Shown piece by piece: positions 15,440 through 34,405 of a stretch of 34,677 nucleotides of DNA. A program made the translations under genes and the position numbers. This DNA is from Sphingobacteriales bacterium (lineage in GTDB: Bacteria > Bacteroidota > Bacteroidia > Chitinophagales > Chitinophagaceae), in NCBI GenBank assembly GCA_024640465.1, contig JAHEEX010000013.1, forward strand, positions 1 through 34,677, read 5' to 3'. The stretch's first letter is position 1. The number at the start of each line of letters is the position of its first letter. The notes below the pieces were generated by a model. The model was not told where the DNA came from, ran no database searches, and saw only the letters and a program-made list of their open reading frames with translations.

Positions 15440-15506
15440 ATGGTTCGTGTCTTCACGAACCATCACTTTGTAAATTTCGTTTTTCGGTTCGTGGGGACAC
15501 GAACCG
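15440..15506. repeat. Twin hairpins with the same stem GGTTCGTG/CACGAACC
   Basis: Hairpin 1 (15440-15463): ATGGTTCGTG, loop TCTT, CACGAACCAT, a perfect 10-bp stem. Hairpin 2 (15485-15506): CGGTTCGTG, loop GGGA, CACGAACCG, a perfect 9-bp stem. The core 8-bp stem is identical while loops and flanks differ, a REP/BIME-like arrangement. The spacer is 21 nt. It lies between two plus-strand genes and neither hairpin has a proper T-run, so these do not look like plain terminators. Confidence 0.75.
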
Positions 15507-15562
15507 AGGCATCCGGAGAAACAGGTAGATAAATTCGAATCCTTGTGTTTAAATTAATTAGT

Positions 15563-33295: not shown

Positions 33296-33904
33296 TTATT
33301 TATCCTTAAGCAAAAGACGCGTATCAACTATCAACTGTTGTATTTCTTCCTGTTTCAATCCATCATAAATTCCCCTCACCTGCCCGTTTCGATCAACTAA
33401 AGCAAAAAACTGGGTATGGATAAACTGATCAGAAATATTCTTACTGCTGTTCTCCTGGTTATCCAGCAAATAACTTTCCCGTGCTGTTTTATATAAACTT
33501 TCCTTGGTGCCTGTAAGGAACCACCAGTTTTGAATGGATGCGCCCATAGAATCTGCATAGTGTTGCAACCTGGCTACAGAATCAGTTTCAGGATCAACCG
33601 TATGAGACAGGATCATAAAATCAGGTTCTTTCTTTAATTCCTCATAAACCGCCTTCATATTCTTGTTCATCTTAGGGCAAATTCCTTTACAGGTTGTAAA
33701 GAAATATTCTGCGATATATACCTTCCCGGACACATTCTTCCCTGATATCATCTGTCTATCCTGCCGCTGGAAGGTAAATGGCCGGACAGTACTTAAAACT
33801 GGCAGCTTTTCTTTGGCAAAATCGGTCGTTGCCATGAGGGCGATATAAAACCCCGCCAATAAAAAACCAAAGGTTCCAAGGTACAACCAAGCCTTTTTTG
33901 TCAT
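33296..33904 (-). CDS. SCO1/SenC-like copper-binding thioredoxin-fold protein
   Basis: A 202-residue protein with an N-terminal membrane anchor or uncleaved signal (residues 6 to about 25) and a periplasmic thioredoxin fold. SCO family features: Y-F-F-T-T-C-K-G-I-C-P, with C72 and C76 as the Cys-x3-Cys pair, LSHTVDPETDSVARLQHYADSMGA in the middle, and H163 in SDQFIHTQFFALVDRNG as the third copper ligand. All three ligands are present, so copper binding is likely. SCO proteins serve cytochrome oxidase copper-site assembly or thiol redox balance. It heads a minus-strand unit with the Fur-family gene and diverges from the MerC gene. A TAAATTTG box (33930 down to 33923) lies 19 bp before its ATG. 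Confidence 0.92.
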   Translation of the reverse strand: MTKKAWLYLGTFGFLLAGFYIALMATTDFAKEKLPVLSTVRPFTFQRQDRQMISGKNVSGKVYIAEYFFTTCKGICPKMNKNMKAVYEELKKEPDFMILSHTVDPETDSVARLQHYADSMGASIQNWWFLTGTKESLYKTARESYLLDNQENSSKNISDQFIHTQFFALVDRNGQVRGIYDGLKQEEIQQLIVDTRLLLKDK

Positions 33905-33966: not shown

Positions 33967-33999
33967 TTTTGCAACTTTGTTGCAAATGATATATCTTTG
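33967..33999 (+). promoter_or_regulatory. Promoter of the MerC-domain gene
   Basis: TTTTG at 33967-33971, a 20-nt spacer and TATCTTTG at 33992-33999 form a consensus Bacteroidota promoter. The predicted transcript start is near 34005, about 11 nt before the ATG at 34016. The spacer holds a perfect inverted repeat. Confidence 0.7.
33968..33986. promoter_or_regulatory. Perfect inverted repeat, candidate Fur/Zur-type operator
   Basis: TTTGCAAC, spacer TTT, GTTGCAAA: 8-3-8, every arm base paired. It overlaps the -33 box and fills the spacer of the MerC promoter, so a bound dimer would block RNA polymerase. A 19-bp dyad of this shape is typical for Fur-family sites, and a Fur-family gene lies 700 bp away in the divergent transcript. 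Binding by that protein is inferred, not shown. Confidence 0.6.
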
Positions 34000-34015: not shown

Positions 34016-34405
34016 ATGTTCAGGATAAATTATGATGCTTTAGGAATTGCGGCTTCGGTTGCCTGTGCGATCCATTGTGCGGTTTTACCTTTGATTCTAA
34101 CCAGCCTGCCTATTTTTGGAACGAATATTATCGACCATCGTGGGTTTGAATACATGATGATTTTACTGGCAATGGGAATTGGCTTTTATTCTCTTTGGCA
34201 TGGATATAAAAAACACCACCATAGCCCGATGCCGGCAATGATTTTCAGCTTCGGAATCATCCTCCTTTTTTTAAAGCAGGTTTATCATGAGCAACAACTA
34301 ATCTTTCTGGTACCTGCCGTGATGTCAATTGTTGCAGCTCACTTGTTGAACTACAGGCTTTGCCGAAAAGCAAATCATTGTCATGCCAACGACTGCAGCC
34401 ATTAG
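34016..34405 (+). CDS. MerC-domain membrane protein
   Basis: A 129-residue membrane protein from the ATG at 34016 (MFRINYDALGIAASV); the frame is open 13 codons further upstream, but those contain the promoter boxes. Four hydrophobic helices are visible. The first helix has CAIHCAVLPLIL with Cys and His in a Cys-x2-His-Cys arrangement, the metal site of the MerC family; two helices later the loop HGYKKHHHSPMP is His-rich, and the tail HCHANDCSH holds further Cys and His. MerC proteins were described for mercury uptake, but with the promoter's Fur-type operator and no mer genes nearby, a zinc or other essential-metal role is more plausible. It diverges from the SCO-Fur transcript. Confidence 0.85.
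   Translation: MFRINYDALGIAASVACAIHCAVLPLILTSLPIFGTNIIDHRGFEYMMILLAMGIGFYSLWHGYKKHHHSPMPAMIFSFGIILLFLKQVYHEQQLIFLVPAVMSIVAAHLLNYRLCRKANHCHANDCSH

Follow-up and report, generated by a model that had tools for sequence, protein, structure and literature searches.

Regulation by Zur, the zinc-dependent branch of the Fur family, is known from Escherichia coli (4mtd) and Xanthomonas (XcZur, 7dh8), among others. In E. coli Zur, H77, C88 and H96 are three of the four site-B ligands, and C88 is the most conserved among them in the Zur subfamily (passages of PMC4219657). COG0523 genes are found under Zur control, DUF1826 genes lie in Zur-regulated COG0523 clusters, and paralogues of zinc enzymes can also be under Zur (passages of PMC2770081). 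Francisella novicida has a small Zur regulon with zur divergent from its target operon, and there loss of zur, like treatment with TPEN, raises one COG0523 and one DUF1826 gene more than 30-fold (passages of PMC5786701). Two other relatives are of interest here, Nur of Streptomyces coelicolor and PgFur of Porphyromonas gingivalis. We analyzed a stretch of 34,677 nucleotides from a Sphingobacteriales bacterium (contig JAHEEX010000013.1; hereafter the window), in which a perfect inverted repeat lies in the promoter of a gene for a MerC-domain membrane protein (merC), close to a divergent Fur-family gene (fur). From sequence comparison, we propose that this dyad is probably the operator of a Zur-type repressor encoded by that fur gene, which would repress merC when zinc is ample.

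The locus shares with E. coli Zur and XcZur the Fur fold, two CxxC pairs, sensing residues that align at three positions (H77, C88 and H96), an operator placed over the promoter, and COG0523 and DUF1826 genes behind sites, whereas identity is only about 20%, the box reads TTGCAAC-N3-GTTGCAA and MerC is the main target. It differs from Zur of Mycobacterium tuberculosis and Streptomyces by a Cys where their alignments show Glu. As in Francisella, the proposed regulon is small, the regulator gene is divergent from a target and COG0523 and DUF1826 genes are among the targets, but there, in another phylum, ZupT (ZIP) stands in place of MerC (passages of PMC5786701). With Nur it has in common the Fur family and the box TTGCAA-N5-TTGCAA, whereas the sequence match (3eyy) is weaker and the genes behind the sites are different. 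PgFur is likewise a divergent Bacteroidota Fur-family protein with two CXXC motifs, but it is reported to lack His-rich motifs, and the reported passages give no operator of this kind (PMC6613475).

The letters at 33968-33986, TTTGCAACTTTGTTGCAAA, form a perfect 8-3-8 inverted repeat that ends 29 bp before merC. The Bacteroidota promoter consensus is TTTG-N19/20-TAnnTTTG, and the spacing from the TTTG at the opening of the dyad to TATCTTTG is 20 bp, compatible with this consensus. The sequence thus agrees with the first-pass annotation of this DNA, which had placed such a repeat between the -33 and -7 boxes of a Bacteroidota-type promoter, overlapping the -33 box, and had located a Fur-family regulator in the divergent transcript; there, an SCO1 gene followed by fur, with its PF01475 match, is found on the minus strand (Table 1). 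The exact 17-bp core occurs once in the 3.8 Mb genome to which the window belongs, and the reversed pattern does not occur. With up to three mismatches allowed, 39 of 100 shuffled windows contained the 19-bp pattern, while in the real window the dyad is the sole match, with 0 mismatches. The window contains 17 perfect inverted repeats with 8-bp arms and loops of 0-8 (overlapping copies tallied separately); ten random sequences of first order held 3-14. By itself, a perfect repeat with 8-bp arms is therefore not rare, and the case for the dyad rests on the comparison across genomes.

For this comparison, we used 80 named Fur loci (the best 80 of 486 relatives listed, totaling 902 kb), which are the nearest relatives of the window locus; among their record titles are Niastella, Flavihumibacter, Lacibacter, Sediminibacterium, Agriterribacter and many metagenome-assembled genomes of Chitinophagaceae or Bacteroidetes. 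The dyad lies 21-47 bp 5' of the MerC start in all 71 loci that bear MerC, being exact in 52, with one mismatch in 15 and with two in 4; the other nine loci, five of them cut by contig ends, are without MerC. The remainder of the 902 kb holds one exact copy (in L211), one copy with one mismatch and 17 with two, and no exact copy appeared in 20 shuffles. In an alignment of the 71 promoters anchored at the dyad, information was 1.4-2.0 bits in the twelve inner columns of the arms and less than 0.5 in most flanking columns; TAnnTTTG follows the dyad core by 5-9 bp in 61 of these promoters and TTTG stands at its opening in 51. Since sequence and position are both kept before 71/71 MerC genes, the reading of the dyad as a functionless chance repeat, to which the 17 repeats of the window had lent some color, is refuted and its probability is close to nil.

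The same loci indicate which of the two divergent genes the dyad serves. Its distance to MerC is narrow (21-47 bp, standard deviation 5.7) and its distance to SCO1 is wide (26-267 bp, standard deviation 44.4), suggesting that it belongs with merC and not with the SCO1-fur transcript on the other strand. We rejected SCO1 as the main target because of this variable distance and of three loci (L215, L220 and L253) that have SCO1, no detectable MerC and no dyad, although L211, with an exact dyad upstream of SCO1 and likewise no detectable MerC, speaks against this rejection.

A second set of 60 related genomes (the relatives set) contains 39 MerC matches, of which 38 were counted, G006:C45 being left out because its start is absent. 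The dyad core was found within two mismatches before 36 of the 38. All 30 MerC matches returned as loci have it just upstream at this threshold, and beyond these it is present in G056, G054 (two weak copies), G029, G047, G030:C798 and G006:C91; no dyad was found in this set at the MerC gene of G007 or at the sub-threshold MerC match of G037. The first-pass annotation had named the absence of the dyad from orthologous MerC promoters and from other metal genes as the outcome that would speak against it; at MerC the dyad is present in 71/71 and 36/38 cases.

The site also follows the Fur protein. An exact WTGCAACNNNGTTGCAW site occurs in 38 of the 40 genomes of the relatives set that have the divergent Fur type and in 2 of the 20 without it. 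Of 298 genomes in the order, 204 have the Fur subfamily; an exact site is present in 126 of these, compared to 9 of the 94 without it, while the reversed pattern, used as a control, was met in 0/60 genomes of the relatives set and 8/298 of the order. In several loci, among them L011, L054, L140, L345 and L346, the site stands directly before a fur gene with no SCO1 in between, and in L140 two copies lie between fur and a TonB receptor gene, which suggests autoregulation in those genomes. These observations bear on the idea that the dyad is the site of a different regulator, such as an activator of the MerR family, with the Fur gene as a bystander. MerR-family activators also bind promoter spacers, the dyad does lie between the -33 and -7 boxes, and MerC is named after mercury operons; however, the sites track the Fur subfamily over the 298 genomes and precede fur genes themselves, and Bacteroidota promoters normally have 19-20 bp between their boxes, so that we consider this idea very improbable. 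In a scan of the phylum, exact sites were present in 22 of 392 genomes; several exact sites outside the order lie inside open reading frames (ORFs) and were set aside as looking like chance.

Exact sites also often occur in pairs. Among 13 distinct pairs within 80 bp of each other in the loci examined (L050, L140, L281, L282, L291, L295, L301, L306, L310, L311, L314, L136 and L137), the start-to-start distance is 37-40 bp in 11 and 28 bp in 2, suggesting cooperative binding of two dimers.

In the window genome (93.6% complete), a single PF01475 match was found, the one adjoining the dyad. Among the 37 genomes of the genus that were searched, 31 have one PF01475 match, 6 have none and a second match is absent from all; the 6 genomes without Fur, some of them incomplete, are also without MerC and without the dyad. 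A lone Fur-family protein would be in keeping with an iron-responsive Fur operator, the protein acting as an iron or general metal repressor. However, other families of the order have a separate Fur with a high score (about 90-110 bits), in some cases together with this divergent type (about 30-54 bits) and in others in its place, the sensor residues of the divergent protein are rich in Cys and His, and the genes behind the sites are of the zinc type, making an iron operator quite improbable. As no second Fur-family protein was found in the 37 genomes, iron control in the genus may rest on something other than this Zur-like protein.

We then consider the class of the protein itself. Against PF01475 it reaches 47.7 bits over positions 2-95 of 121, which exceeds the Pfam cut-off (23.1) and lies outside the 90-110-bit Fur class. 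In a profile alignment, H67, C81 and H90 fall on H77, C88 and H96 of E. coli Zur, and these three residues together with C107 are invariant in 99/99 rows (which include the window protein twice). In the alignments with FurB (2o03) and Streptomyces Zur (3mwm), C107 takes the position of a Glu; against E. coli Zur, whose acid ligand is E111, HMMER opens a two-residue insert and pairs C107 with C113. A PDB search with a profile of 18 Fur proteins gave E. coli Zur at 53.8 bits, Bacillus cereus Fur at 53.4, M. tuberculosis FurB at 52.1 and Nur (3eyy) at 39.5, whereas a narrower profile of 71 close relatives gave FurB (a Zur) at 42.0, PerR at 41.2, Fur at 39.7 and Nur at 24.1. Because the rank order shifts between profiles, the overall score is not decisive, and the sensor residues are more telling. 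The AlphaFold model has a pLDDT of 83.5, lowest (57) at residues 81-90, the sensing loop. It shows the Fur-family fold with a winged helix, and the top Foldseek and VIA matches are of the Fur-family type; holo-XcZur (Z 13.9) and E. coli Zur (13.8) are tied with several Fur and PerR entries, so that the structure search does not separate Zur from Fur and PerR.

To see which genes lie behind the sites, we examined completely seven genomes of family f18, chosen for their many sites (40 in total). Thirty-six of these sites are followed within 250 bp by the start of an ORF of at least 75 aa, 2 are inside ORFs and 2 elsewhere. A Pfam search on 45 site-side ORFs returned MerC (6), TonB receptor (5), DUF4625 (4), FUR (3), DUF1826 (2), ABC ATPase (2), Pyr_redox_2 (2), GTP cyclohydrolase I (FolE, 1) and COG0523 (1). 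The DUF1826 gene precedes the COG0523 gene in L310 and L317. G660 has three FolE copies, one of which lies behind a site. In other genomes of the order, sites stand before a MerC-COG0523 pair (L145), a COG0523 gene alone (L337), genes of DUF4625 proteins (L155, L156 and L159) and ABC/DUF3526 genes (L137 and L139). Overlap of the site with the promoter was measured for MerC genes alone; for the other genes, the site is close upstream. The genomes of family f1 were our own selection; G692, G625 and G557 are one site short each. Taken together, the gene set reads as one of zinc starvation. The search for the dyad before other metal genes, proposed in the first-pass annotation, has thus turned up TonB receptor, COG0523, DUF1826, FolE, ABC transporter and fur genes. 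Its prediction of a metal-responsive switch on a MerC-type gene gains support from conservation, from co-occurrence with Fur and from these metal genes, and zinc, which it had only suggested, now appears the best-supported metal.

Nickel must also be considered, with the same Fur-family protein and operator sensing nickel in a Nur-like way, and MerC and NicO-type transporters as nickel genes. A site does precede a NicO-family gene in L143 (E 2.5e-17), and a weaker case is L150, where the NicO score of a DsbD_2/NicO-like gene (27.1 bits) is just below the cut-off and DsbD_2 scores higher. In contrast, COG0523, DUF1826, FolE paralogue, TonB receptor and MerC genes lie behind the sites, and Nur scores below E. 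coli Zur with both profiles (39.5 compared to 53.8 bits and 24.1 compared to 37.0 bits). The nickel site of Nur consists of four His. The invariant sensing Cys of the present protein, on the other hand, corresponds to the site-B residue that is best conserved among Zur proteins (passages of PMC4219657). We judge a nickel switch unlikely.

Several observations weigh against the zinc-operator proposal. The core TTGCAA-N5-TTGCAA is letter-identical to the consensus of the Streptomyces Nur box (passages of PMC3919588), and with these shared letters nickel stays a rival. With the narrower profile, E. coli Zur ranks only seventh (37.0 bits), behind PerR and Fur entries; this rank and the exact site of L211 slightly weaken the zinc reading and raise that of nickel. 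The NCBIfam Zur model NF008646, which covers the PRK11639 group only, is the top NCBIfam match but gives 33.4 bits against a cut-off of 167, with PerR at 31.9 and Fur at 31.3. No exact site was found in 78 of the 204 genomes of the order with the Fur subfamily, the association statistics are overstated since related genomes share ancestry and are not independent samples, and some of the Fur proteins used in the site-rich family are of other subtypes. G007 has MerC and Fur, yet no site within two mismatches at MerC. The FolE of G660 is of the PF01227 (FolE1) family, whereas passages of PMC2770081 name FolE2. Forty-five control ORFs, a random sample of 80 ORFs in the same loci whose distance to a site exceeds 900 bp, included MerC (2), cobW (1), ABC (1) and CarboxypepD_reg_2 of the TonB-receptor type (1); FUR, DUF4625 and DUF1826 were not among the control families displayed (25 of 48). 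With these control matches, and with some controls being operon mates (the COG0523 gene of L317), the contrast in the gene tally is modest. Finally, no zinc gene besides merC was found with a good site in the window genome.

In that genome, merC is the sole strong target found. Sixteen further places match with one or two mismatches; 15 are inside ORFs, and the last (L101, G000:C10:3328-3344), which has two mismatches, overlaps an ORF with a TTG start in its first codons only. We took none of the 16 as a target. An ORF that begins about 44 bp after the L101 place has an MTCANC motif and is, by look only, a heavy-metal ATPase. Threonyl-tRNA synthetase was dropped as zinc evidence: in G007 (L142 and L166), where the MerC promoter is without a site, an exact site stands 29 bp before its ORF, but this copy has retained the PMNCP motif and no other full-length one was found, whereas the Zur-regulated cases in the passages of PMC2770081 are paralogues. 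Two further kinds of genes recur by sites. A thioredoxin-reductase-like gene is seen in L054, L329, L331, L338, L342, L345 and L346 (Pyr_redox_2 by Pfam for two, the rest by look). Small secreted His/Cys-rich proteins are encoded directly 3' of sites in L146, L334, L341, L343, L052 and L066, by look often followed by TonB receptors; a Pfam scan of those from L146, L052 and L066 returned no match.

With the zinc-operator reading, the proposed mechanism would be as follows. A zinc-bound Zur dimer would occupy the 7-1-7 core TGCAACT-T-TGTTGCA and, bound at the -33 box and spacer, would block the sigma factor; at low zinc, Zur would be released and merC transcribed, and MerC would help with zinc import or handling at the inner membrane. 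Across 72 aligned MerC rows, C17, H20, C21 and E45 are invariant, C17 and C21 forming a conserved Cys pair, and 61 of the 72 rows have a His/Cys-rich tail (at least 5 His/Cys in the last 15 residues). A membrane protein that handles zinc is a plausible role for MerC from these residues.

Table 1. Coordinates of the candidate operator, its promoter and the neighboring genes in the window.
Feature	Position	Strand	Detail
8-3-8 dyad TTTGCAAC-TTT-GTTGCAAA, proposed Zur-type operator	33968-33986	no strand	core 33969-33985
-33 box TTTG	33968-33971	+	within left arm of dyad; read from sequence
-7 box TATCTTTG (TAnnTTTG)	33992-33999	+	read from sequence
MerC-domain membrane protein (merC), 129 aa, proposed target	34016-34405	+	PF03203, E 2.4e-24
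SCO1/SenC protein, divergent from merC, first gene ahead of fur	33296-33904	-	PF02630, E 9.2e-27
Fur-family regulator (fur; proposed Zur), 140 aa	32851-33273	-	PF01475, E 1.5e-12

Elsewhere in the window, at 15440-15510, two copies of the inverted repeat GGTTCGTG-N4-CACGAACC lie 44 bp apart and look like an operator pair.

Among the entries listed in searches of the open-access literature (titles and beginnings of abstracts, most subscription papers and RegPrecise lying outside), none described this box, placed MerC in a Zur regulon or reported a Zur regulon for the order. What appears new here is a divergent Zur-type system with a box of its own and MerC as core target. A tentative generalization, which we hold to be nearly as probable as its contrary, is that the MerC-domain proteins of Bacteroidota act in the membrane in zinc starvation, probably as importers, under a divergent Zur subfamily with a Cys/His sensing site and a Nur-like box, MerC being the core and sometimes the only target.

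In conclusion, for Chitinophagaceae and their relatives among the Bacteroidota, the analysis provides a candidate zinc operator and a candidate regulon that can be tested, and the MerC domain, named for mercury resistance, likely has an everyday role in zinc supply. If this is true, the same box letters would serve two metals, in Nur and probably in this Zur, and the sequence of the box would be no guide to the metal in the Fur family.
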